Assembly: GCA_014384375.1 (NCBI GenBank)
Contig: JACNFY010000022.1
Span: 1 to 41,472 of the forward strand
Direction: 5' to 3'
Origin: Nanobdellati archaeon
GTDB taxonomy: Archaea > Nanobdellota > Nanobdellia > Woesearchaeales > GCA-2686295
DNA length: 41,472 bases
Within the stretch, counting starts at the first letter, position 1, and the number at the start of each line of letters is the position of its first letter. Below are positions 517 through 35,040 of this stretch, one piece after another. The notes under the pieces were generated by a model. The model had not been told where the DNA came from and did not search any database. It worked only from the letters and a program-made list of their open reading frames with translations. Both the position numbers and the translations under genes were made by a program.

Positions 517-540
517 AGTAATCTATTTAAATAGATTACT
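517..540. promoter_or_regulatory. palindromic bidirectional core promoter for L10e and tRNA-Gln
   Basis: This is a perfect 24-bp palindrome with half-site AGTAATCTATTT and an archaeal TATA box (CTATTTAAATAG) at its centre, between 528 and 529. The L10e ATG (503, minus) is about 26 bases to one side and the tRNA-Gln 5' end (559, plus) about 30 bases to the other. Both distances fit TBP-to-start spacing, so one symmetric element could serve both genes. A repressor dimer site is the alternative reading. Confidence 0.65.
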
Positions 541-558
541 GTTTTTCTAGAATCACGC

Positions 559-826
559 AGCCCTGTGGTGTAGTGGCCAAACAAAAATCGTGGATTTTTG
601 AAAGCCGAAAACCTTCGATTTTAGGCTAAGCATAACAGGCTCTGGAGAAGTTCGGAGACACCTGTTGACCCAGGTTCGAAACAACGATGTTCGTTCGTTG
701 ACACCGAAGTGCGCATTACGCTTCGCTTCAGCCCCACAGCGCTTGACGCCAAAGGCGTCGCGACTGAAAGGAGCATGATGGTGTCGACGGAAATGACCGT
801 CGTTGGCGAAAGTCCTGGCAGGGCTA
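559..826 (+). tRNA. tRNA-Gln(CTG) interrupted by three introns
   Basis: The exons rebuild a full archaeal tRNA-Gln. Acceptor AGCCCTG (559-565) pairs with CAGGGCT (819-825), and A826 is the discriminator. D stem GTGT (568-571) pairs with GCAT (630-633). Anticodon stem ACAGG (635-639) pairs with CCTGT (661-665) around loop CTCTGG+A, anticodon CTG at 642-644. T stem CCAGG (670-674) pairs with CCTGG (814-818). Three insertions remain: about 581-629 in the D loop (49 nt, boundary ambiguous by 1-2 nt), 646-659 at the canonical 37/38 site (14 nt), and about 681-812 in the T loop near 59/60 (132 nt). Removing them leaves a TTCGAAT T loop. No other reading gives all four stems. The shared promoter lies upstream at 517-540. 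Scanners without multi-intron models would probably miss the gene. Confidence 0.85.
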
Positions 827-3400: not shown

Positions 3401-3541
3401 ATGAAACACATCATCAGCGTCAGTGTTGATGAAGATACTGTCATAAAAATCCGCGAAATTCTTAGAAAAAGCAGTTGCAGGAATAAAAGCCACGTAGTAG
3501 AGGAAGCAGTGAGAAAATTCTGGGAGGGGAAAAGGAGATGA
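3401..3541 (+). CDS. 46-aa ribbon-helix-helix (CopG/Arc-like) DNA-binding protein
   Basis: The peptide begins MKHIISVSVDEDTVIKIREI, with the beta-strand (HIISVSVDE) and the first helix of the RHH fold; a second helix follows in KSHVVEEAVRKFWEG. RHH proteins dimerise and contact DNA through the paired strands, acting as repressors or as antitoxins of toxin-antitoxin pairs. It is the first gene of the kinase operon, with its own TATA box. Its TGA overlaps the ATG of the first kinase (ATGA), and GGAG just before the overlap serves the kinase. Position and size suggest an autorepressor of the operon, which is an inference. Confidence 0.75.
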   Translation: MKHIISVSVDEDTVIKIREILRKSSCRNKSHVVEEAVRKFWEGKRR

Positions 3542-5250
3542 GTCTAGAAGAAGAACTGAAAAAAGGACTTGTAAGAGAAATAAAAGTAACCCAATTCGAT
3601 TTATTTGGACAACATGAAATAACAACAGTTAAAATTCCAAAAATAAACTTAGAAATAATTGGAAAATCAATTGGATACTATGATGACTACATTGAAGGAG
3701 GAGATCCTCTTGGCAAAGAATATTTTCTTGAATTAATTGAAATAACAGGACTTTCTGAATATGACCTAAACAAATTCCATAAAGACTTAAGAATTTTTGA
3801 AAGAATATACCTTTTAAAACACGGCATTACAAATGAAATTGCTAACAGTTACTGCCCTTTGCCAATAACAGATAACGATGAGACTTTTGTTTTAGAAATA
3901 CATGGAATATCTAGAGCAAAAGCAATCGAATTCTTTCATGAAAACAATATATCACCAGAAGAAGCTTCAGAAATTATAGACGGATATGATGACAGATTTT
4001 CAGACTTAACATGTCGTATGATTGTAGAAGGATTTTCATCAAAAGTAGCAAATGCTTATCCTGAAAGATTCAATGAATGGGAAATACACACTTTATGGGG
4101 AGATGGAAAAACTCCTGGAGAAGTAAAGCTCTTCCCAGATAATTTCAAAGCCACAGATTTCACAACATTAAATTATGCAGGTGTAAATTCCAAAAACTAC
4201 TCAAAAGAAGAAATTAGAAGATTAGGAGAAATTTTCAAATTAATTGGGAATTCTTTTCCAGAGGAAATAATAGAAAAAGAGATTTCAATCATAGGTACAG
4301 GAGTAAACGGAGTTGTCATAAGTTGGAAAGAATATGCCATAAAATTCTCAAAAGAAATCCAATATGAAGCAGAATTGTTGAAAAAAGTAAAAGCTGAAAA
4401 TAAGGAATTAAATCATGTTATACAAATAATGGAAGATACACATATGCCGTTTTATTCTGAAGATTATTTGAAATTCATAAGAAGAAGAGATGAAATACTT
4501 CGAGAAGAGTATGGTCTTACAGACATAGAAGAAAGATACGAAAATAGAAGCATACTTGAAGAATATGAAGACTGGGGAATAGGTGACGAGGAGGAAGAAT
4601 TTATAGCTAAAATAGAAGACGACCTAATGGAGGAAGGACACACTTTTGCTTCAAAACATCATCCGGCTAGCGAATTGGAAAAGCAAAGAGATAAACTATA
4701 CATTTGGCTTGAAAGAATAAGTGGAGAAACATTAGAAACAATGCTTAAGAAAGAATCATTACTCATATCGCCTTTTTCTTATGGGTATGATATACTACAA
4801 GGGATTCAAGAGCTTAGAAATGCAGAAATATACCATAGAGACCTTCATGACAGGAACATCATGATAGATGAGTTTGGTGAAGCTATCATTATAGATTTAG
4901 GTGCTGCAACTACAAACCCCAATGAAGTGCATGAACAAAACAGGTTGTATGGCGGCAACAATGACTTAATTTCTTTAGGATTATTAATGTACAAAATGGC
5001 AACAGGCCACAACTTATTCAGCGACGAAAGCGGACACTCCTATAGAGAAGAAATCAAAGATAGTATCAAAACAGAAAGAGAAAAAACCTATGAAGACCCA
5101 ACACTAAAAAAAGCAATGATAAACAAAGTAAGAACAGAAGTAGAAGGAGGACTAGGAAGAATAATTATGAACTTACTAGATGATGACCTGTGGACACAAC
5201 CAAGCATGAAAAAAATTGAACAAACACAAAGAATGTTTGATGAATACTAA
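3538..5250 (+). CDS. Hanks-type protein kinase with N-terminal degenerate repeats (kinase 1)
   Basis: 570 aa. Residues about 100-240 contain degenerate copies of a roughly 30-residue unit (for example NNISPEEASEIIDGYDDRF and GFSSKVANAYPERF). Residues about 250-560 form a protein-kinase-like domain: glycine loop IGTGVNGVV (about 251), Lys in AIKFSKE (about 267), catalytic HRDLHDRN (HRD about 433, Asn about 440), and DLG instead of DFG (about 452). The C-lobe has YGGNNDLISLGLLMYKMATG. A unique acidic insert (about 300-390, with EDWGIGDEEEEF) separates the lobes. All catalytic residues are present, so it is probably active. It starts by ATGA overlap with the RHH gene. Bases 4878-5203 are identical to a part of kinase 4. 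The substrate is unknown. Confidence 0.85.
   Translation: MSLEEELKKGLVREIKVTQFDLFGQHEITTVKIPKINLEIIGKSIGYYDDYIEGGDPLGKEYFLELIEITGLSEYDLNKFHKDLRIFERIYLLKHGITNEIANSYCPLPITDNDETFVLEIHGISRAKAIEFFHENNISPEEASEIIDGYDDRFSDLTCRMIVEGFSSKVANAYPERFNEWEIHTLWGDGKTPGEVKLFPDNFKATDFTTLNYAGVNSKNYSKEEIRRLGEIFKLIGNSFPEEIIEKEISIIGTGVNGVVISWKEYAIKFSKEIQYEAELLKKVKAENKELNHVIQIMEDTHMPFYSEDYLKFIRRRDEILREEYGLTDIEERYENRSILEEYEDWGIGDEEEEFIAKIEDDLMEEGHTFASKHHPASELEKQRDKLYIWLERISGETLETMLKKESLLISPFSYGYDILQGIQELRNAEIYHRDLHDRNIMIDEFGEAIIIDLGAATTNPNEVHEQNRLYGGNNDLISLGLLMYKMATGHNLFSDESGHSYREEIKDSIKTEREKTYEDPTLKKAMINKVRTEVEGGLGRIIMNLLDDDLWTQPSMKKIEQTQRMFDEY
4878..5203 (+). repeat. 326-bp tract identical to 11511-11836 (kinase 1 / kinase 4 C-lobe)
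   Basis: Base-by-base reading finds no difference between 4878-5203 and 11511-11836 (offset 6633), although the kinases diverge strongly on either side. The tract encodes the C-lobe from the DLG motif to LDDDLWTQP. It looks like a recent gene conversion or unequal exchange between paralogues. Confidence 0.9.
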
Positions 5251-5251
5251 A

Positions 5252-6712
5252 ATGACACTAGAAAACAAACTCCTGAGAGAAGAAAAAGAAAGAGCTAGAG
5301 AAAGGTTTAGAAAGAAAGCAAGAACAGATAAAGAGCCGAGTACAAATGACTATTCTGACAGATTTGATTTACATGAAAGATGTGAACTAGCTGATGGTTA
5401 TGTGAAACCAGAGTTTGCAGATAAATACGATGAAAGATTTAGAGGACAAGGAATAGCATGGCTCGTTAGAACAGGAGTCAGCCCTGAAGAAGCATCTTCT
5501 TTTTCATCATTCTTAGGCGGAGTTGGAATAGCGAAATTAGTAGAAATCGGCATGACACCAGAGAAAGTAGATGAATACATGGTTGAAGTTTTCAATGGCT
5601 TATCCATAGTAGAATTCGTTAAAGCAGGAATAAAACCAGAACAAGCAAACAAATATGCTATGCTTACGTTTGAATATGAACATGATAGTATTCAAGATAT
5701 AATTGACTTAATAAAAGAAGGAATAACACCAGAACAAGTAAGAGAATATGATAAAAGATTCAGCATAACAGATATAATTAATTGCAATGATATTGGTCCA
5801 TCAGAAGCCAATAATTTTCCAGAAGAAGTTGAAAACTATCTGATACCACTTTTGTCGATGATCAATGTTTTGCCAAGTCAATATTCTCAAGAAAAAATAA
5901 AAGGAATAGAAAGACATCTACTTACAGTCCTATTAAACATACACGATTTAAGAAAAAATCCTGATAATTATTACTTTCTTGGAACTGGTGTAAGCGCAGC
6001 AGCTATACTGAATAGAAAAACCAACACAAGTTATAAGTGTGCTGAGAATCTAGAAACTGAGATAGAATTATTAACCAAACTAAGAGAAGAAGTAGGTGAG
6101 ACAAAAAATGTTGTTAATTATAAACAAACAATTTCAAAAAAAGATATTCATGTTATAGAAATTGAATACATAAAAGGAGACACTCTAGAAAGAAAATTGA
6201 AAGAAGAAAAGAATTTTTCATCAAAAAAAATTCTACAATACGGTTCTGATATATTGAATGGAATTCTAGAGCTAAGAAATGCAGGCATCTACCATAGAGA
6301 CCTTCATGACAGGAACATCATGATTGATGAAGATGAAGACAAAGCTGTAATCATAGACTTGGGAGCAGCAACAACCAATCCTGAAAAGAGACATCCTCTT
6401 AACAGAAGTTATGGTGGTAATAATGACTTGGTATCTCTTGGTCAATTAATATATAAGATGTATACAGGACATAACCTGTTCAACGAAGGATTTGGATATT
6501 CAGGAGCTGATGAAACAAAAGACGAAATAAAAAAAGAACGAGAAGCAGCATATGATAACCCAGAAATACTAAAAAAATACCTGAACAAAGTAAGACGAGA
6601 TGTTAAAGGAGAACTAGGAGAAACAATAGCAACAATACTAAACGACGACCTGTGGACACAACCAAGCATGGAAAAAGTAGAACAAACAATAAGAATTCTT
6701 GAACAATACTAA
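5252..6712 (+). CDS. Hanks-type protein kinase with N-terminal helical repeats (kinase 2)
   Basis: About 486 aa from the ATG at 5252, one base after the stop of kinase 1 (TAA-A-ATG); the frame is open further upstream but would overlap kinase 1. Residues about 35-200 hold the clearest repeats: YDERFRGQGIAWLVRTGVSPEEA, a GIAKLVEIGMTPEKVDEY copy, a LSIVEFVKAGIKPEQANKY copy and a DIIDLIKEGITPEQVREYD copy. The kinase domain follows: loop LGTGVSAAAI (about 243), Lys in SYKCAEN, HRDLHDRN (about 347), DLGAAT (about 368), YGGNNDL. It shares short identical nucleotide segments with kinase 1 around the catalytic loop and at the 3' end. The active-site residues are intact. The substrate is unknown. Confidence 0.85.
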   Translation: MTLENKLLREEKERARERFRKKARTDKEPSTNDYSDRFDLHERCELADGYVKPEFADKYDERFRGQGIAWLVRTGVSPEEASSFSSFLGGVGIAKLVEIGMTPEKVDEYMVEVFNGLSIVEFVKAGIKPEQANKYAMLTFEYEHDSIQDIIDLIKEGITPEQVREYDKRFSITDIINCNDIGPSEANNFPEEVENYLIPLLSMINVLPSQYSQEKIKGIERHLLTVLLNIHDLRKNPDNYYFLGTGVSAAAILNRKTNTSYKCAENLETEIELLTKLREEVGETKNVVNYKQTISKKDIHVIEIEYIKGDTLERKLKEEKNFSSKKILQYGSDILNGILELRNAGIYHRDLHDRNIMIDEDEDKAVIIDLGAATTNPEKRHPLNRSYGGNNDLVSLGQLIYKMYTGHNLFNEGFGYSGADETKDEIKKEREAAYDNPEILKKYLNKVRRDVKGELGETIATILNDDLWTQPSMEKVEQTIRILEQY

Positions 6713-6713
6713 A

Positions 6714-8003
6714 ATGACACTAGAAGAACAAACACAAGAAGAGTATGATGAAAGGTTTGACATTTTAACAAAGAGATATTTTATCAAATATGAAATTCCT
6801 CCAAAGATTGCAAACCAATATAGTCCAGAATTTGATTCATATGATATATCAGAACTCATCACTGAAAATATTCTTCCAGATAAAGCAAACAGATATGCAG
6901 AATTAAGAAAAACTAGGATATGTGATGGGTTTCATATCTCAAAATTAATTGAATGGAATTATCCTCTCAGACTAGTAGACAAATTTGATTCACGATTTCA
7001 TGGAGAAGGCATCATAAATATACTCAGAGCTGGAGGAGAACCAGAAGAAGCAAATCAATACAACCCTCGTTTTTCAGGTTACGAAATTAATCATCTTCTT
7101 ATAGCAGAATGTCCTCCTGAAATAGCCAATGAATACGAACAGAATTGGAGCGGATTTAGCATTGCAATTTTATATAGTTTAGGAATAACATCTCAAGTTT
7201 TATCTTCATTCGATGAGGAAAAAAAGAAAAGAATACATTATATTCTTAAAGGCGTCATAAGTGAGTCTGGAAAAAGAGAGAAAAGAAGTCAATATTCATT
7301 CATAGGTGTAGGTAGCCAATCAGTTATTTTACTAAAAGAAAACAATGCTTGGAAATTCTCCCAAAACATTGAAAAAGAAGCAATGACGCTCAAAAAAATA
7401 AAAAATTCTCATAATGTAATAAGAATTAAAGGAGAAGTAGAAGAAGAGTTAACAGTCAGATTAGAATACATAAAAGGTCCAACATTAGAAAAACTTATAG
7501 AAAAACAAAAAACTCTTTCATCTGAAAAAGTTTTGCAATATAGCTTAGATATCATGAACGGACTCATCGAGATGCGTAGAGCTGGCATCTTTTATCATCG
7601 TGATATTCGTCCTGCTAACATAATGATAAACGAAAAAACAGACACAGCAATAATAATCGACTTAGGTATTGCAACTACAGACAGACACGCTTTACCCTTA
7701 GACAATCGTCGCTATGGTGGACCTAATGACTTAACAAGTCTGGGTCAGGTTATGTATAAGATGGCAACCGGAAAACACCTATTCGCAAAAAGCAAATCAA
7801 TGGAGAGAACAACACAAGCAGAACAACTAAAAGACCACAGAGAATGGATATACAAAAACCCCAGAAGAGTAAATTACTACTTAGAAAAAGTAGACAAAAA
7901 CATAGCAGACAAACAACTAAACACCATAATAAAACACTGCATAAAAGCAAAAAAACACCAATATATGCAAACACAAAGAATGCTCCAACAATACACAAAA
8001 TGA
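6714..8003 (+). CDS. Hanks-type protein kinase with N-terminal helical repeats (kinase 3)
   Basis: About 429 aa from the ATG at 6714, again one base after the previous stop (TAA-A-ATG). The N-terminus MTLEEQTQEEYDERFD is shared with kinase 4. Repeats occupy about residues 15-165 (FDSRFHGEGIINILRAGGEPEEA and NPRFSGYEINHLL copies). The kinase domain has loop GVGSQSVIL (about 196), Lys in AWKFSQN, HRDIRPANIMI (about 294; RPAN is closer to the common eukaryotic-like KPEN form), DLGIATTD (about 315) and YGGPNDL. Its C-terminal third differs from kinases 1, 2 and 4, so it has escaped the conversion seen there. It ends by ATGA overlap with the TPR-kinase gene. Confidence 0.84.
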   Translation: MTLEEQTQEEYDERFDILTKRYFIKYEIPPKIANQYSPEFDSYDISELITENILPDKANRYAELRKTRICDGFHISKLIEWNYPLRLVDKFDSRFHGEGIINILRAGGEPEEANQYNPRFSGYEINHLLIAECPPEIANEYEQNWSGFSIAILYSLGITSQVLSSFDEEKKKRIHYILKGVISESGKREKRSQYSFIGVGSQSVILLKENNAWKFSQNIEKEAMTLKKIKNSHNVIRIKGEVEEELTVRLEYIKGPTLEKLIEKQKTLSSEKVLQYSLDIMNGLIEMRRAGIFYHRDIRPANIMINEKTDTAIIIDLGIATTDRHALPLDNRRYGGPNDLTSLGQVMYKMATGKHLFAKSKSMERTTQAEQLKDHREWIYKNPRRVNYYLEKVDKNIADKQLNTIIKHCIKAKKHQYMQTQRMLQQYTK

Positions 8004-10531
8004 AATTAGAAAAATTAGTTAGGAAACTGGAAGAAGTGAAAAGGGATCCTAATAGTTTTCAAACTCCTGAAGAGTTCAAACAACTAGCAGATGGTTTCTA
8101 CAGCAGCGGAAGAAGAGATATCACCATAGAAACACTTGAGATTGCAGTAGACAGAGACATAACTAACGATATGACATATTACTCCTTAGGGTTCATGCAC
8201 AATGAAACAGGAGATCACGAGAAAATCATTGAAGCATTAGAGAAAGCTGTCGAAGTTAACCAGACAAACGAGCTTATTTTCAGGATGTTATCAGATACTT
8301 ATGTTAAAACAAATAAACCTGAAAAGGCCAAAATTATATGGGAAAAAGCAGCAGAAAAAGAACAAGCAGACATCAATATGATATTTGAACTCGCATTATC
8401 ATATCAACAAGAAGGAAATCTGGAAAAAGCAATAGCAGTTTCTGAACAAGCAGTAAAATCAGGTAAAGTGGATATAAGTAAGGTAGTTAAAAAAGAGGAT
8501 TTGAATGTTCTAACAAATCTGAGTACTTTTTATCTGCAAACAGGACAATTAGAAAAAGCAGGACAACTATGTGAAAACATTCTGCAAAAAGCAGCTACGC
8601 CTGCTATAGTAATAAACCTTTCTACTGTTTATCAGTATACAGGAAATGAAAATAGAGCAATATCATTGCTTAGCAAAGCACTGAAAAAAGGATTTAAAGT
8701 AGCACCGATATATTCTCTCTTAGGTTCGCTCTTGATGACCAAAGGAAACAAGAAAGGAGCAGTCAGTTTATGGGAAGAAGCTGTTGCAATAGGAGAAACC
8801 GACTCACACATTCTATTCAACTTGCCTTTGTTTTATCTCATGATTAGAAACTATGAGAGAGCTAAGGAACTTTCTGAAATGGCAATTAGAAAAAACCAAG
8901 TCCAAACAGGAGTATTCACTAATCTTGCACAAGCATATAACATGCTAGAGAATACAGACAAAGCAATTCAAGTAGCTGAAGGAGCCATGAAGTCAGGATA
9001 CATAGAGCCATTATTGATACACAACTTGGCAGGATACTATTCATTAAAAGATGATGAAATATCTTCAATTCAGATTTTAGAAGAAGGAATTAGAATCGGA
9101 CAGGTTAGCCCAAGTATATATTCAGCTCTTTATTATTACTACGGAAAATCTGGTTATATGACAAAAGCCTTAAGCGTTTTAGATGATGCAATAGAAAAAG
9201 GTCAAAGCAATGATTGGATTTTTTCTGTGCTAACTACTTACTATAAAAACAAATCAAATCTAGAAAAAGCAAGAGAATATGCTCAAAAAGCAATAGATAT
9301 AAACCAAACTAATTCTGACATTTACTATCTGGTAGGCAGCCTCGAAATGGAAGTAGATTGGATTAGAGAGCTTGTAAACATAACCGAAAAGAACAAAACA
9401 AATATATTGGCGCCAAAACAAGGAGACATTGAATACATGTCAGAAACTAGGGAAGGCCACTTCATTCATCATCAATCAGGCCCTGACATAGTAGATGAAA
9501 AAGATTATCGTGCTTATTATTATCTATCACTTGTGGCTGGAAAGCATCCTCTAACAAAAGACAAGACTCCAGAAGATTATTTCAGGGAGATGGTTTCTCT
9601 CATGGTTCAGAACATGGACTTCCGCGTAATGACAGGCACTTACAAAAAAGCAACAAACCAGATTAAAGTAATAAGTGCTGATTCAGATCTAGAGTCAACA
9701 GTTGTCATTAAAGGATACGATACTCTAAATGTGTCTGAAATTCAGAATAGGGATATACTGGAAGACATAGTTGGAGATATAGTTGATTTGCCAAAGCATG
9801 TTATTAGCTTTGAAGAAGAAGATATGTTTTTTTATGTCATGCGCCGAGAAGGAGGTCATACACTGACTGATTTTATGAAACATCGACCTGATAGATGGGA
9901 ATCAAAAAAAACCAGTGTAAACGAACGATTACTCTTGGCAATGTCCAGGATTTATGTCGAATTTCCTGTGAAAGACCTTGAAGATTATGATTACAGGGGA
10001 AAAATCTTTGAAAAGGGTTACATTGAGAAAATACTTCCACATGCGAATCCGGTAATAGAAGCTTTCGAGCATTCAGAATACATAGGTTACTTCAGTGATT
10101 CTTGGACTGACAATTGGTTAATCAATGAAGATAAAGTTATCTTAATAGATACAGAGGACAGAGGAAAAACACCTTTTGCACTTGATCTCGCCCATTACTT
10201 AAACTGCATCCCACACGGAACATTCGAAGAAAGAATAGCATACGTAAAAAAAGCAATTGAATATGTAAACGAAACAGCTCAAGAAAAAGAAATAGACAGA
10301 ACAATAGATTATGAAGATAAATTCATGAATGAATACTACAACGGAGTCATATACAGAGCATTACTAAACACTGCAAGCAGAAGAAGAGAAAAAAGAATAG
10401 GAGATTCAAGAAAAATAGCTAAAACAGGAATAGAGATGATAGATTTCATGGAAGAACAAAAGCTAATCCCAGAAGAACATATTAATGATTACCATGTATT
10501 AAAAGAAGTGTTGGAAGTGAGTATGAAATGA
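8000..10531 (+). CDS. TPR-repeat protein fused to an aminoglycoside-phosphotransferase-like kinase domain
   Basis: 843 aa from the ATG at 8000, which overlaps the stop of kinase 3 (ATGA); the frame extends upstream but inside kinase 3. Residues about 20-480 are a run of roughly a dozen TPR units of about 34 aa (YYSLGFMHNETGDHEKIIEA, NLEKAIAVSEQAVKSG, NLEKAREYAQKAIDI). The C-terminal half resembles APH/choline-kinase folds: VVIKGYD (possible ATP lysine), MRREGGHTLTDFM, the catalytic segment SDSWTDNWLI (Asp about 699, Asn five residues on) and IDTEDRG (metal Asp about 715). The usual HGD is changed to FSD. TPRs suggest a scaffold that recruits partners, perhaps the flanking kinases. The last gene begins by ATGA overlap. 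Confidence 0.78.
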   Translation: MKLEKLVRKLEEVKRDPNSFQTPEEFKQLADGFYSSGRRDITIETLEIAVDRDITNDMTYYSLGFMHNETGDHEKIIEALEKAVEVNQTNELIFRMLSDTYVKTNKPEKAKIIWEKAAEKEQADINMIFELALSYQQEGNLEKAIAVSEQAVKSGKVDISKVVKKEDLNVLTNLSTFYLQTGQLEKAGQLCENILQKAATPAIVINLSTVYQYTGNENRAISLLSKALKKGFKVAPIYSLLGSLLMTKGNKKGAVSLWEEAVAIGETDSHILFNLPLFYLMIRNYERAKELSEMAIRKNQVQTGVFTNLAQAYNMLENTDKAIQVAEGAMKSGYIEPLLIHNLAGYYSLKDDEISSIQILEEGIRIGQVSPSIYSALYYYYGKSGYMTKALSVLDDAIEKGQSNDWIFSVLTTYYKNKSNLEKAREYAQKAIDINQTNSDIYYLVGSLEMEVDWIRELVNITEKNKTNILAPKQGDIEYMSETREGHFIHHQSGPDIVDEKDYRAYYYLSLVAGKHPLTKDKTPEDYFREMVSLMVQNMDFRVMTGTYKKATNQIKVISADSDLESTVVIKGYDTLNVSEIQNRDILEDIVGDIVDLPKHVISFEEEDMFFYVMRREGGHTLTDFMKHRPDRWESKKTSVNERLLLAMSRIYVEFPVKDLEDYDYRGKIFEKGYIEKILPHANPVIEAFEHSEYIGYFSDSWTDNWLINEDKVILIDTEDRGKTPFALDLAHYLNCIPHGTFEERIAYVKKAIEYVNETAQEKEIDRTIDYEDKFMNEYYNGVIYRALLNTASRRREKRIGDSRKIAKTGIEMIDFMEEQKLIPEEHINDYHVLKEVLEVSMK

Positions 10532-18630: not shown

Positions 18631-19710
18631 TTCCTTAACAAGAAAATCATTCATATCCTTATCCCTAACAATAATCCTAACATAACCTCTTCCTTCTAAA
18701 CCATTAGCATTTCTAAAATCAGCAACTAGTACTTTTCTTTTGTGCAAGTCAGAGAACAAATCTTTGTCTTTGTGTTTTAACAAAATCGTATTTGTCATGG
18801 TTTCACTCGCAATATGAATCCCCGAAATTGTTTTCAATTCCTTAATCAGCTCTGATTTTATCTCACTGGTTTTCTGAACTGTTCTCTTTAGATGCTCATG
18901 ATCTTTCAACACTGCAAGAGCAACCTTCTGTGATAATGTTGAGGAGTTGTATGGAAGGCGGAACTTTTCAAAAAAACTTATGGTTTCCTCGTCGCCTATT
19001 CCAAAACCAAATCGTATTCCTGCAAGACCATAAGCCTTTGACAGACTTCTTAAAACAAGCAGGTTCTTCCTCCCATCAATCAATTTCACTGCAGAGGATT
19101 TAAAAGTTGGATCAATGAATTCATGAAGTGCTTCATCAACAACTACAAAGCAGTCTGTCTTATCCAAAACCTGTTTTATTTGCTCAAGAGACATCATAAC
19201 GCCTGTCGGGTTATTTGGATTGCATAACCATATCAACTTAACACCATCATCATTTGCCTCTCTGATGATTTTTTCAATTATGTTATCATTTATTGCAAAG
19301 CTCTCTGCCTCTTTTGTATGAATCATTGTAATTTCACAGTTCATCCTCGCGACTGAATCAAGGAATCTGAAGAAAGTCGGAATTATAGCCAGAGCCTTAT
19401 CCCCTTCATTCAACAGTAGCCGGGGTATTAGTTCTATTATCTCATCCGATCCAGCACCTGTTGTGACCATTTCAGGTTTCACTTTGAATATCTCTGCAAT
19501 CTTTTTCTTTAATTCAAAAAGACAGGGGTCAGGATAGTCATGCATATCACTTTCATTAAACTTCTTTATTTCATCAAAGACTTTCGGAGTAAATGGAAAC
19601 GCACTTTCTCCCATATCAAATCTTTTAAATTCTGCAAAGTCCTCTTCTTTGTATAAGTAGCTTGATACTTCTTCTCCCACGTAGTTTGATAAAAATCTGT
19701 TTGGTTTCAT
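18610..19710 (-). CDS. HisC-like PLP-dependent aminotransferase
   Basis: 366 aa fold-type I aminotransferase of the histidinol-phosphate/aromatic group. The N-terminus has YPDPCLFELKKKIAEIF, then VTTGAGSDEIIELI (cofactor phosphate region), LIWLCNPNNPTGVMM (Asn contacting PLP), FVVVDEALHEF (Asp/Tyr region) and the Schiff-base Lys in LRSLSKAYGLAGIRFG. It could act on histidinol phosphate or on Tyr/Phe keto acids. No other his gene is nearby; it follows tyrS by ATGA overlap, which favours an aromatic substrate. That is inference. It converges on the EamA gene. Confidence 0.85.
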   Translation of the reverse strand: MKPNRFLSNYVGEEVSSYLYKEEDFAEFKRFDMGESAFPFTPKVFDEIKKFNESDMHDYPDPCLFELKKKIAEIFKVKPEMVTTGAGSDEIIELIPRLLLNEGDKALAIIPTFFRFLDSVARMNCEITMIHTKEAESFAINDNIIEKIIREANDDGVKLIWLCNPNNPTGVMMSLEQIKQVLDKTDCFVVVDEALHEFIDPTFKSSAVKLIDGRKNLLVLRSLSKAYGLAGIRFGFGIGDEETISFFEKFRLPYNSSTLSQKVALAVLKDHEHLKRTVQKTSEIKSELIKELKTISGIHIASETMTNTILLKHKDKDLFSDLHKRKVLVADFRNANGLEGRGYVRIIVRDKDMNDFLVKELRDICS

Positions 19711-20900
19711 TTTATTATAATTTTCTTAAATGTTTTCTTACCAACATTTATCACATCACCATCCTTCGGACTATATTTTTGGAATGGGTCATTTATCGTT
19801 TGACCATTCAATCGAACAGCACTTTCTCTTATTAAATATTTTGCTTGTCTCTTGCTTGCTGTGAACTGAAAATAAATTAATGCTTCTTGCATATCGGATA
19901 TTTCAACCGCTTTTTCAATGGTTACTTCGGGCATTTCTAAAGGCATCTTTCTGTTTCGATGGACATTGCTGAACTCCTCTTCGGCATATTCAGCTTTCTC
20001 ATTACCAAATATTTGAGATACTATATCCTTCGCCAAGATCATTTTTATATTCATAGGATTAACTTCTTTTAATCTGACTTTTTTTTCCCACTCAGTTATT
20101 TGTTCAGACTCCAAAGTTGATAACAGCATTAAATAATCAAACATTATCTCATCGTTAATAGACATTATCTGCCCAAACATATTATCCGGCTTCTGATTCA
20201 AAGGTATTATGTTGTTAGAGCTACTGCTCATTTTATTCCCATCTGAACCCTTTAATAACGGAAGTGTCATAATTACTTCCGGCTTCTGTCCATATTTTTG
20301 CTGTATTGCTCTAGTGAACAAAAAGTTAAAGTATTGGTCTTCTCCACCTATCTCTATATCCACCTTTAGCTTCACAGAGTCATAAGCTTGAAGAAAAGGG
20401 TATATAAACTCAAGCATCGATACTGGTTTCCCTTCTTCTAGTCGCTGATGAACACCCTTACGTTTTATCAGAGTATTAATATTTTCATACGAGAAAAGAT
20501 CTATTAAGCTTTCCAAGTCAGTATTTTTCAACCATTTTGAATTGTAAACTACTCTAGTCTTATCTGGATTCAGAATCTTAAAAATCCATTCTTGGTATGA
20601 GGACATATTTTGTTGAACTATCTCTGGTGATAGTTTCCTTCTAAGCTTGCTTGTTCCACTAGGATCGCCTAATCTCGCTGTAAAATCACCTATAAAAAGT
20701 GTTACCTTGTAATCCAGATCTTGAAATGTTTTTAGCCTTTTTATCGGAACCAAGTGACCAAGATGAAGATCGGAATTCGTAGGATCTATCCCAAATTTTA
20801 TAGTTATATCTGACTGCTCCAGCTTATTATATAGCTCAGACTCTGAAACTAATTGAACTACGTTTTTTTTAACTAGTTCTAATTTATAGTTGGTTTTCAT
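19707..20900 (-). CDS. tyrS: tyrosyl-tRNA synthetase, bacterial type with C-terminal S4 domain
   Basis: About 397 aa from the ATG at 20900 (MKTNYKLELVKKN). An upstream in-frame ATG at 20921 would overlap the tRNA-Tyr gene and is rejected. Class I signatures: FGIDPTNSDLHLGHLVP (HIGH), GDFTARLGDPSGTSKLRRKL, LQAYDSVKLKVDIEIGGEDQ (tyrosine pocket) and the loop GSDGNKMSSSSNN (KMSKS degenerated to KMSSS). An S4 RNA-binding domain ends the protein (SKRQAKYLIRESAVRLNGQ). This is the bacterial TyrRS layout; typical archaeal TyrRS is shorter and lacks S4. It lies 14 bases behind tRNA-Tyr, probably on the same transcript, and overlaps the aminotransferase gene. Confidence 0.92.
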   Translation of the reverse strand: MKTNYKLELVKKNVVQLVSESELYNKLEQSDITIKFGIDPTNSDLHLGHLVPIKRLKTFQDLDYKVTLFIGDFTARLGDPSGTSKLRRKLSPEIVQQNMSSYQEWIFKILNPDKTRVVYNSKWLKNTDLESLIDLFSYENINTLIKRKGVHQRLEEGKPVSMLEFIYPFLQAYDSVKLKVDIEIGGEDQYFNFLFTRAIQQKYGQKPEVIMTLPLLKGSDGNKMSSSSNNIIPLNQKPDNMFGQIMSINDEIMFDYLMLLSTLESEQITEWEKKVRLKEVNPMNIKMILAKDIVSQIFGNEKAEYAEEEFSNVHRNRKMPLEMPEVTIEKAVEISDMQEALIYFQFTASKRQAKYLIRESAVRLNGQTINDPFQKYSPKDGDVINVGKKTFKKIIIK

Positions 20901-20914
20901 TTTCAAATCACAAA

Positions 20915-21039
20915 TCCCCACGCCCAGACTTGAACCGGGAACCTCTTGGTTACAGCTGACTTGCTTTCATTCACAGTGAAGCTTCACTTTTGTCTGCAAG
21001 TATCTACAGCCAAGCGCTCTACCCTTGAGCTACGCAGGG
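20915..21039 (-). tRNA. tRNA-Tyr(GTA) with 53-nt intron
   Basis: On the minus strand acceptor CCCTGCG (21039-21033) pairs with CGTGGGG (20922-20916) using G-U pairs, and A20915 is the discriminator. D stem is GCTC/GAGC, anticodon stem CTTGG (21014-21010) with CCAAG (20949-20945), T arm CCCGG-TTCAAGT-CTGGG. Loop CTGTAG+A gives anticodon GTA at 21007-21005. The intron occupies 21003-20951 at the canonical 37/38 position. C1-G72 is the archaeal/eukaryal tyrosine identity pair. A TTTAAA box at 21080-21085 is a plausible promoter. Confidence 0.92.
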
Positions 21040-22486: not shown

Positions 22487-24256
22487 TTACTTTTTATTTT
22501 CTTCAGCAACTATTTCAGCATAAATTCTTCTTACTCCTTTTGAAGAACTTTTTTCTTTTGTTATTTTAATTCTACCTATTTCAGAAGTTGATTCCACATG
22601 AGGTCCTCCACAAACTTCAAGAGAATAATCTCCGATTCTATACACACTTACTCCATCTTTAGGGTATTTATCTGCATCAAATAAACATAACGCTCCTTGA
22701 GTTTTTGTTTCTTCATAAGATAATATTTCTCTTGTGACTAGCAAATTTTCCATAACTTTTTGATTAATAAGATTTTCAACAGCTTCTATTTCTTCTGAAG
22801 TCATGGAGTGTTCATGATAAAAATCAAAACGTAAACGCTCATTCGTTATATTGCTTCCTGCCTGCGAAACATGATCTCCTAAAACTTGTCTAAGTGATTC
22901 TTGTAACAAATGGGTAGATGTATGATATTGTGTTGTTATTTCGGTTATTTCAGCCAACCCTCCTTTAAAACTTCTATCAGCACTTTTTCTTGATACTTCT
23001 TTATGTCGTTCTCTTGCTCTCTCAAATCCTTCCATATCAATCTCTATACCTCTTTCTACTGCTATATCTCTTGTCAACTCTAATGGAAAACCATAGGTTT
23101 CATAAAGTCTAAAAACTTTTTCTCCTGCCAATTTATTACTAACAACTGAAGACAATAAATCTTCTAGCTTCTTTCTTCCTTTTCTAAGTGTTTTACTAAA
23201 AGCGTTGTATTCATGAGAAAAAGTAGTTTTGATATGTTCAGATTGTTTTAGTTTCTTATCGGAATCTAGAATTTCTAAAGCCTCATTCACTAAAGCGTTA
23301 AAATTATTAATCCCTATGAGTTCAGCATTATATATAGCTTTTCTTAGCAGCCTTCGTAGAACATAGCCATGCAGCTTATTTGAAGGAGTAATACCTTCAT
23401 CAGCAATAAAAGTCGCAGCTCTTAAATGATCACTTATAACTCTCTGAGAAACTTCATCAACGTCCTCAGAAGCATAACTTAAAATTATATCTGAGAGTTC
23501 TTTAAGAGGAAAAACATCATATACTGATTGTTTACTTTGTAAAATAACTGCTAATCTTTCAAGTCCCGCACCTGTATCGACTACTTTTTGAGGTAAAAAA
23601 TCTAGTGATCCGTCTTTATTTCTATTATAAGCCATAAAAACGCCTGCGTTCCATATTTCAACAAAGCGAGGAGACTCATCACCAGGAGTAGCTGCTTTAC
23701 CATATTTTTCTCCTCTATCAAAAAAAACTTCTGTGCAAGGTCCACAAGGACCCACTTCTCCCATACTCCACAAGTTATCTTCAGCAGGTTTTAAATAAAT
23801 TTGAGATTGACCAATACCTAATGATTTCCAAATTTTAATTGATTCTTCATCTTTAGGTATTTGCTCATCCCCTTCAAAGACTGTAATTGCGAAATATTCA
23901 GAATTCAAATGAAGTCTCTCTGTTAATAAAGCATATGCGTGTTCTAATGCCCCTTCTTTCCAATAATCTCCAAAGGACCAACTTCCAAGCATATTAAAGT
24001 AAGTAAGTGTTCTAACACTCTGACCAACTCTATCGATATCTCTAGTTCTTATACAACTTTGATTAGAAGTAAGCTTTGTTGCTGGAGGATCCCTTAAACC
24101 CAAAACAAATGGCTTAATCGTATGAACACCTGAATTAATAAACAAAGCAGATGGGTCCATCTCATCAGGGATTAGACTATGGTTTTCCAGAAGATAATGA
24201 TCATTTTCTATGAAATACTCTAAAAAAGTTTCTTTGATTTCCTGTGTTGAAAGCAT
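22487..24256 (-). CDS. alaS: alanyl-tRNA synthetase, short form lacking the C-Ala domain
   Basis: 589 aa. The class II catalytic core is complete: DPSALFINSGVHTIKPFVLG, YFNMLGSWSFGDYWKEGA (motif 2 region) and VVDTGAGLERLA (motif 3). The editing domain keeps its zinc ligands in YHTSTHLLQESL and CGGPHVEST (usually HTATHLL and CGGTHV). The protein stops right after editing, whereas bacterial and archaeal AlaRS are about 850-900 aa with a C-terminal oligomerisation/tRNA-elbow domain. Short AlaRS are reported, to my knowledge, in some reduced genomes such as Patescibacteria, a possible source by transfer. ATG at 24256; the next gene is divergent. Confidence 0.92.
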   Translation of the reverse strand: MLSTQEIKETFLEYFIENDHYLLENHSLIPDEMDPSALFINSGVHTIKPFVLGLRDPPATKLTSNQSCIRTRDIDRVGQSVRTLTYFNMLGSWSFGDYWKEGALEHAYALLTERLHLNSEYFAITVFEGDEQIPKDEESIKIWKSLGIGQSQIYLKPAEDNLWSMGEVGPCGPCTEVFFDRGEKYGKAATPGDESPRFVEIWNAGVFMAYNRNKDGSLDFLPQKVVDTGAGLERLAVILQSKQSVYDVFPLKELSDIILSYASEDVDEVSQRVISDHLRAATFIADEGITPSNKLHGYVLRRLLRKAIYNAELIGINNFNALVNEALEILDSDKKLKQSEHIKTTFSHEYNAFSKTLRKGRKKLEDLLSSVVSNKLAGEKVFRLYETYGFPLELTRDIAVERGIEIDMEGFERARERHKEVSRKSADRSFKGGLAEITEITTQYHTSTHLLQESLRQVLGDHVSQAGSNITNERLRFDFYHEHSMTSEEIEAVENLINQKVMENLLVTREILSYEETKTQGALCLFDADKYPKDGVSVYRIGDYSLEVCGGPHVESTSEIGRIKITKEKSSSKGVRRIYAEIVAEENKK

Positions 24257-34940: not shown

Positions 34941-35040
34941 CGCCGCGGCTGGGAGTTTCGCCTAGAAGGTTTCGAACCCAGAAGCCATTTCTGGCAGAGG
35001 GTTATCAATCCTCCGCTATAACCAATTAAGCGACCGCGGC
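34941..35040 (-). tRNA. tRNA-Ile(GAT) with T-loop intron and extended variable region
   Basis: Minus strand: acceptor GCCGCGG (35040-35034) pairs with CCGCGGC (34948-34942), discriminator G34941. D arm is GCTTAATTGGTTATAGC. Anticodon loop TTGATAA carries GAT; stem GAGGA/CCCTC has one A-C mismatch. T stem CTGGG (34981-34977) pairs with CCCAG (34953-34949), but the T loop holds 23 nt instead of 7, so a 16-nt intron lies at about 34970-34955, leaving TTCGAAT. The variable region is 15 nt (TGCCAGAAATGGCTT), 10 more than usual, either a small hairpin arm or a second mini-intron. G73 is unusual for Ile. TATA at 35064-35071 fits a start at the tRNA end. Confidence 0.7.

Follow-up and report, generated by a model that had tools for sequence, protein, structure and literature searches.

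The tRNA-Gln(CTG) gene described here is likely a functional tRNA gene, found once in its genome, whose T-loop intron derives from a mobile element that targets tRNA genes and is tolerated through a bulge-helix-bulge (BHB) junction. Splicing and mobility are inferred in this reading, as no RNA data are available. What is new is a structured repeat family that serves as a tRNA intron in some places and occurs as a free, repeat-flanked element in others. The gene lies in a stretch of 41,472 nt (hereafter the window) and belongs to a 1.27-Mb assembly that is 95% complete (G000). Archaeal origin of this genome is based on L10e, RNase P RNA and the splicing endonuclease, and we infer that it is a DPANN archaeon. 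Five congeneric genomes (G001-G005) were used for comparison.

The gene occupies positions 559-826 of the window (+ strand) and consists of four exons and three introns. A likely TATA box, TATTTAAATA, was read from the sequence at 524-533 (+), about 31 nt 5' of the tRNA; its function is inferred, and a similar stretch is found upstream of the orthologues in G001, G004 and G005. Exon 1 (559-580, +) comprises the 5' strands of the acceptor and D stems and the D loop up to A21, as judged from ARAGORN on the joined exons and from the orthologue alignment. Intron 1 (581-629, +; 49 nt) interrupts the D loop at about 21/22, offers a 4-bp junction helix GGCC/GGCT and has no counterpart in the G005 orthologue. 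Exon 2 (630-645, +) carries the 3' strand of the D stem, the 5' strand of the anticodon stem and the anticodon CTG up to position 37, followed at the canonical 37/38 site by intron 2 (646-659, +; 14 nt; 4-bp helix CTCT/GGAG), a site that is uninterrupted in the orthologues of G001, G002, G004 and G005. Exon 3 (660-680, +) extends from the 3' strand of the anticodon stem into the T loop TTCGAA (position 59), which is interrupted at 59/60 by intron 3 (681-812, +; 132 nt; junction helix TTCG/CGAA), the copy of the repeat family. Hairpin 1 forms the 5' end of the element within this intron (682-700, +) and is a covarying helix in alignment A1. The conserved 3' module of 58 nt (745-802, +) scores 82.7 bits with our covariance model R1, shows covariation on 16 copies and contains hairpins B (745-759), C (760-774) and 2 (785-802), all on the + strand. 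Exon 4 (813-826, +) supplies T60, the 3' strands of the T and acceptor stems and the discriminator A.

Splicing in silico yields a standard tRNA-Gln(ctg) of 73 bases according to ARAGORN. Because the intron-free syntenic orthologue in G005 is the same tRNA, the exon/intron boundaries are also backed externally, and we regard this anatomy as shown. The original prediction, made from sequence alone, had given the intron positions and lengths (49, 14 and 132 nt), the anticodon and both ends of the gene, and all of these held. It had also suggested that ordinary tRNA scanners would probably miss the gene, which was confirmed: ARAGORN made no call on the unspliced 559-826, nor after removal of the D-loop intron alone, and reported zero tRNAs in the whole window, while Rfam at gathering cut-offs matched only a different tRNA at 20915-21039 (-). 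The unspliced RNA folds at -112 kcal/mol compared to -82.7 (sd 5.4) for 200 dinucleotide shuffles (z -5.4; none of the 200 as low), and its minimum free energy (MFE) structure holds the cloverleaf stems together with the intron helices. For the 132-nt intron alone the fold z-score was -5.0, again with 0 of 200 shuffles as low.

A search of the genome with the pattern GTGTAGTGGYYAA, allowing up to 1 mismatch, returned 7 matches, and both exact ones are Gln genes: tRNA-Gln(TTG) and the present tRNA-Gln(CTG). A second intact tRNA-Gln(CTG), which the original prediction had proposed to look for, was not found in this pattern search. The tRNA-Gln(TTG) likewise has interruptions in its D loop, its anticodon loop and its T loop. 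A further tRNA-Gln(TTG) named by ARAGORN, at locus L014, was rejected, since by reading it is a tRNA-Ser(GCT) with introns. CAG is the minor glutamine codon (81 of 324 glutamine codons in 33 open reading frames of the window). Gln(TTG) can also read CAG by wobble, so that the gene need not be essential.

Comparison with the congeners showed that the introns are present or absent between orthologues. Synteny was judged from ribosomal protein L10e on one flank (83% in G004, 74% in G005, and its first 22 amino acids in G001) and the open reading frame at 1842-2180 on the other (90% in G004, 94% over 32 amino acids in G001, 60% in G002). Syntenic tRNA-Gln(CTG) genes carry D-loop, anticodon-loop and T-loop introns of 49, 14 and 132 nt in G000, D-loop and T-loop introns of 34 and 85 nt in G001 and of 43 and 81 nt in G002, a D-loop intron of 77 nt in G004 and none in G005; no orthologue was found in G003. 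The gene was therefore readable in five of six genomes of the genus, our own included, with D-loop and T-loop introns in three, a D-loop intron only in one, no intron in one, and a 37/38 intron in a single one. The D- and T-loop introns come and go at identical sites throughout, and the 14-nt intron is private to our genome among the orthologues compared. Five further genomes of the order, which each represent a different family, have T-loop introns of other sequence in tRNA-Gln (L122, L124, L127, L130, L131), so that the T-loop site of tRNA-Gln is used beyond the genus.

The original prediction had proposed to fold each junction for a BHB motif. A 4-bp helix is possible at all three, with the bulges partly relaxed. 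The T-loop junction reads TTCG AA^A / CGAA AG^T, and splicing there would give TTCGAAT, the usual archaeal T loop. The D-loop junction (GGCC AA^A / GGCT AA^G) and the anticodon junction (CTCT GG^A / GGAG AC^A) offer four pairs each. In the MFE structure only the T-loop junction comes near the textbook BHB, and even there a single additional G is left unpaired across from the 5' bulge; the 5' bulge of the D-loop junction has 5 nt instead of 3, and the 14-nt intron appears as a 7-bp hairpin with a 3-nt bulge on the 3' side only. To test for such junctions without presupposing them, interrupted T loops were sought via stem pairing alone, without any BHB condition. This gave 37 candidates, of which 4 were excluded since an intact T arm was possible. 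All four BHB pairs were present in 30 of the remaining 33, three pairs in two and two pairs in one, compared to 2.0% of random 4-mers that reach four pairs. These loci are not a random sample, as many were fetched via intron similarity or the 5' junction. A tRNA scan that imposed the BHB condition returned 28 cases, compared to zero in shuffled sequence. The T-loop junction sequences are very uniform, with AG before the cut in most.

One tRNA splicing endonuclease is encoded in the genome (C23, at and around 58770-59030), with both tRNA_int_endo Pfam domains. It is nearest by sequence to 3iey_A and 1a79_A, which we take to be the catalytic subunit from Nanoarchaeum and the enzyme from Methanocaldococcus. 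No partner subunit for this single alpha-type endonuclease was detected in the genome. Non-canonical introns have been linked to two-subunit endonucleases and the alpha type to few such introns (PMC4090602); a lone alpha-type enzyme hence counts against the proposed splicing of three BHB junctions. The single alpha-type subunit detected (L214:1474-2130, -) contrasts with the many introns at non-canonical sites in the genome.

The 5' junction pattern GGTTCRAAACAAHG of the T-loop intron occurs eight times in the genome, compared to zero occurrences of the reversed control. All eight sites are T loops of tRNAs, by reading those of Glu(CTC), Pro(TGG), Ser(TGA), Leu(TAG), Gly(TCC), Ala(GGC), Pro(GGG) and Gln(CTG). 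A match to the pattern in a congener (G005:C39, L204) was discarded, as it lies in coding sequence without a tRNA. The eight introns, which belong to non-orthologous tRNAs, are 66-94% identical in the 28 pairwise comparisons. The Leu and Ser introns share 92% identity over 146 nt, with 70% between the tRNA bodies, and the Glu and Pro(TGG) introns 94% over 81 nt, with 73% between the bodies. Similarity between non-orthologous tRNAs was also seen at the D loop, where the Gln intron of G004 and the Leu intron of our genome are 88% identical over 76 nt.

T-loop introns of this family measure 81-211 nt, and the 3' module is common to the long ones. In an alignment of 16 copies, 91.9% of the cells in the three helices of the module pair compared to 77.9% in shuffled alignments, and two-sided changes number 32 compared to 9.3; none of 500 shuffles reached either value. 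The repeat family and the conserved structure of its 3' module are thereby shown. No Rfam match to a group I intron core was obtained in the window or in 12 loci with copies at E<=1, and no non-tRNA Rfam family exceeded its cut-off at the window and the element loci; the rows below cut-off (tmRNA, YrlA, SmY, HgcC, mascRNA) fall on tRNAs or are weak. A box C/D guide RNA within the intron was considered and rejected, as the CTGA and ATGATG-like words become CCAA and CTTATG in other copies. Hairpins of the form CAAAAA..TTTTTG, which resemble the D-loop intron at 581-629, constitute a second palindromic repeat family; it appears nested inside T-loop introns of relatives and was also seen at L162, L205, L207 and L164.

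Model R1 gave 22 matches in the genome at E<=0.01, of which two are reverse-strand echoes, leaving 20 distinct copies. Placement was assigned by reading, and 18 of the 20 either are part of a same-strand tRNA gene or are no more than 120 nt away from one, which shows the association of the module with tRNAs. Five copies are part of T-loop introns (Gln, Pro(GGG), Ser, Leu, Gly(TCC)). Four are leaders that end at the 5' end of the tRNA (C34:44604, C34:4424, C2:32497, C34:43335) and another four lie slightly further upstream (C3:5741, C3:5635, C1:12472, C1:3961). Five are trailers within 120 nt (C18:18812, C34:31289, C1:27533, C19:523, C34:7428), and the last two are located beside a protein gene adjoining tRNA-Val (C3:38209, C3:38568). 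Modules ending at a tRNA 5' end are also present in relatives, at L155, L157, L160, L262 and L264 of G004 and at L271 of G006. The module further occurs as an anticodon-loop intron (tRNA-Arg of G002, L170) and inside a D loop (tRNA-Arg of G007, L270). All five congeners contain matches at E<=1, with 1 to 20 per genome, and 12 of 193 genomes drawn from the order match at E<=0.01, six in the same family and six elsewhere with weak scores (E 0.0003-0.005).

Direct repeats of 10-25 nt flank seven of 37 copies from our genome and the loci of relatives, and these beat 40 shuffles. Their lengths are not constant (19, 18, 15, 15, 25, 24 and 10 nt); the three longest carry one to three mismatches, and the 10-nt repeat at L252 is marginal. 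Six of the seven repeats correspond to the 3' end of the tRNA in front of the element, so that this tRNA is left intact. At the seventh, L266, an imperfect 25-nt repeat corresponds to the 3'-terminal 25 nt of a protein gene, stop codon included, with the element just behind it. A tRNA 5' end is duplicated at L211 and L268. The elements between the repeats measure 52 to 116 nt; the 3' part is contained in every one, and the copies of 52-76 nt are without the left part. In long copies hairpin 1 resembles hairpin 2 in inverted sense, as judged by reading. No clear flanking repeat was found for the other 30 copies. The repeat at L157, the eighth to beat its shuffles, was not counted since it reflects the T arms of two adjacent tRNAs, and a 15-nt repeat with three mismatches at L145 failed to beat its shuffles. 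The flanking repeats are shown, while movement as a discrete element is inferred from them, from the length variants and from the copies outside tRNAs. In a search for the mover, no reverse transcriptase (RVT_1), Y1 transposase (Y1_Tnp) or Cas1 was found in our 95%-complete genome; one of the five congeners has a single weak Cas1 match below cut-off. For a possible viral origin, two exact patterns retrieved no stretches from viral_contigs.

Based on these data we propose that the gene, as the only detected tRNA-Gln(CTG), would be transcribed as a single precursor. The splicing endonuclease would cut the BHB junctions in the D loop, at 37/38 and in the T loop, and ligation of the exons would yield a normal tRNA. 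Intron 3, in the T loop, would represent one copy of a structured element, and this element would multiply in the genus by insertion into or beside tRNA genes. Such an insertion may survive if a duplicated, intact tRNA end is left, or if the new junction forms a spliceable BHB, which the loop motifs TTCGAA and GGCC, both palindromic, would ease. Splicing in the cell, mobility and this rescue model are all inferences without RNA data, and the mover is unidentified. That the palindromic motifs confer instant spliceability is no more than a possible hypothesis, as the present data cannot separate it from selection for BHB junctions. A bolder reading, which we put forward only tentatively, is a gene-less structured mobile element of about 50-210 nt that targets gene ends and tRNA genes, generates target duplications of 10-25 nt and would become an instant intron upon landing in the D or the T loop of a tRNA, as duplication of the palindromic TTCGAA or GGCC would supply the central helix of the BHB. 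If true, this would be a concrete mechanism for the gain of archaeal tRNA introns.

Among the alternatives, it remains possible that ordinary recombination, gene conversion between tRNA genes or reverse splicing spread the introns without any dedicated mobile element. Intron spread is known in Thermoproteales with its mechanism open (PMC4090602), the T-loop junctions are very uniform, mostly with AG preceding the cut, and no transposase or reverse transcriptase of the tested families was found. Against this stand the copies outside tRNAs, as leaders and trailers, and the copy at L266, just behind the stop codon of a protein gene and with an imperfect 25-nt direct repeat, a type of repeat that reverse splicing does not predict. 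We consider it unlikely that the 58-nt module is an RNA of use to the host, for instance in the processing or stability of pre-tRNA leaders and trailers, that was recruited several times and in some cases ended up within an intron. Its conserved structure, its same-strand bias and its position directly at tRNA 5' ends in several loci of our genome, G004 and G006 would fit such a role. However, many tRNAs were found without the module, its copy number differs among congeners (1 to 24 matches), and the flanking repeats and the protein-gene copy favour insertion. RNase P RNA is present (151 bits), so that there is no 5' processing gap to fill, and absence of RNase P was rejected as a cause of the leaders. 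Very unlikely, finally, is a decaying pseudogene interrupted by a repeat, with CAG read by Gln(TTG): three interruptions in one gene, the minor status of CAG and the existence of Gln(TTG) speak for it, but every stem pairs once the gene is spliced, the exons agree with syntenic orthologues that have few introns, the TATA-like box is preserved, the 4-bp helix is retained in 30 of 33 T-loop junctions, and interruption is no marker of dead genes here because Gln(TTG) is itself interrupted in the same three loops.

The proposed tRNA-targeting element resembles known systems only in part. Transposed tRNA introns are known from Thermoproteales, where their mechanism is open (PMC4090602) and intron transposition was reportedly described by Fujishima et al. 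in 2010. As there, similar introns occupy non-orthologous tRNAs and are present or absent between close orthologues, whereas the present family is strongly structured, measures 81-211 nt at the T loop, occurs also outside tRNAs, has partly repeat-flanked copies and belongs to another lineage whose endonuclease looks single-subunit. Archaeal tRNA genes contain up to three introns each, and the 59/60 site is known (PMC4090602, PMC8450103). The tRNA-Pro(UGG) of Pyrobaculum islandicum carries introns at 25/26 and 56/57 in addition to the canonical one (PMC4090602). Both genes combine one canonical with two non-canonical introns, inferred to be of the BHB type in tRNA-Gln(CTG), whereas tRNA-Gln(CTG) has D-loop and 59/60 sites, a T-loop intron of 132 nt and an origin of that intron in a repeat family. 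The disruption model for the tRNA-Thr of Caldiarchaeum subterraneum (PMC3293823) likewise connects the gain of an intron with a mobile element and with directly repeated tRNA sequence, but the insertion there is 1,868 bp long with a putative recombinase, whereas the present elements measure about 50-210 nt and have no gene. Casposons and their possible non-autonomous derivatives (PMC4046053) insert, as inferred for the present element, at the 3' ends of tRNA genes or of a protein gene with duplication of the target; in contrast, our genome has no detected Cas1, and the present element is found inside tRNA loops as well. The open-access literature searched (including PMC3293823, PMC4090602, PMC8450103, PMC6125680 and PMC4046053) yielded nothing on the repeat family, with most subscription papers outside the scope of the search.

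Several other features of the window were noted. The tRNA at 20915-21039 (-) is, by reading, a tRNA-Tyr(GTA) with a 37/38 intron and lies directly before a synthetase gene of the tRNA-synt_1b (Trp/Tyr) type at 19707-20921. At 34959-35040 (-) there is a weak tRNA match (21 bits) whose variable arm is long, whose anticodon loop was read as TTGATAA and whose T loop seems to hold an intron of 16 nt. Two loci of the same genome that look similar, L027 and L030, have Ser-like D arms but odd anticodons. A short alanyl-tRNA synthetase of 589 amino acids is encoded at 22487-24256 (-). Its relatives in genome_contigs are almost all bacterial, which suggests horizontal transfer; no close one is named, and one of 80 loci is a Woesearchaeota record, in whose genome R1 was not matched. 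Between 3538 and 10531 (+), two proteins with protein kinase domains (3538-5250 and 5216-6712) are followed by a large TPR protein (7844-10531).

The origin of introns in archaeal tRNA genes has been called unknown (PMC4090602). The genus studied here offers a natural series, in which the number of introns in the same tRNA ranges from zero to three, with identical sites throughout. Related elements are found inside and outside tRNAs, some of them flanked by repeats, and may show how tRNA introns are gained. As the tRNAs of such genomes can escape ordinary scanners, apparent tRNA losses in these archaea need to be treated with care.
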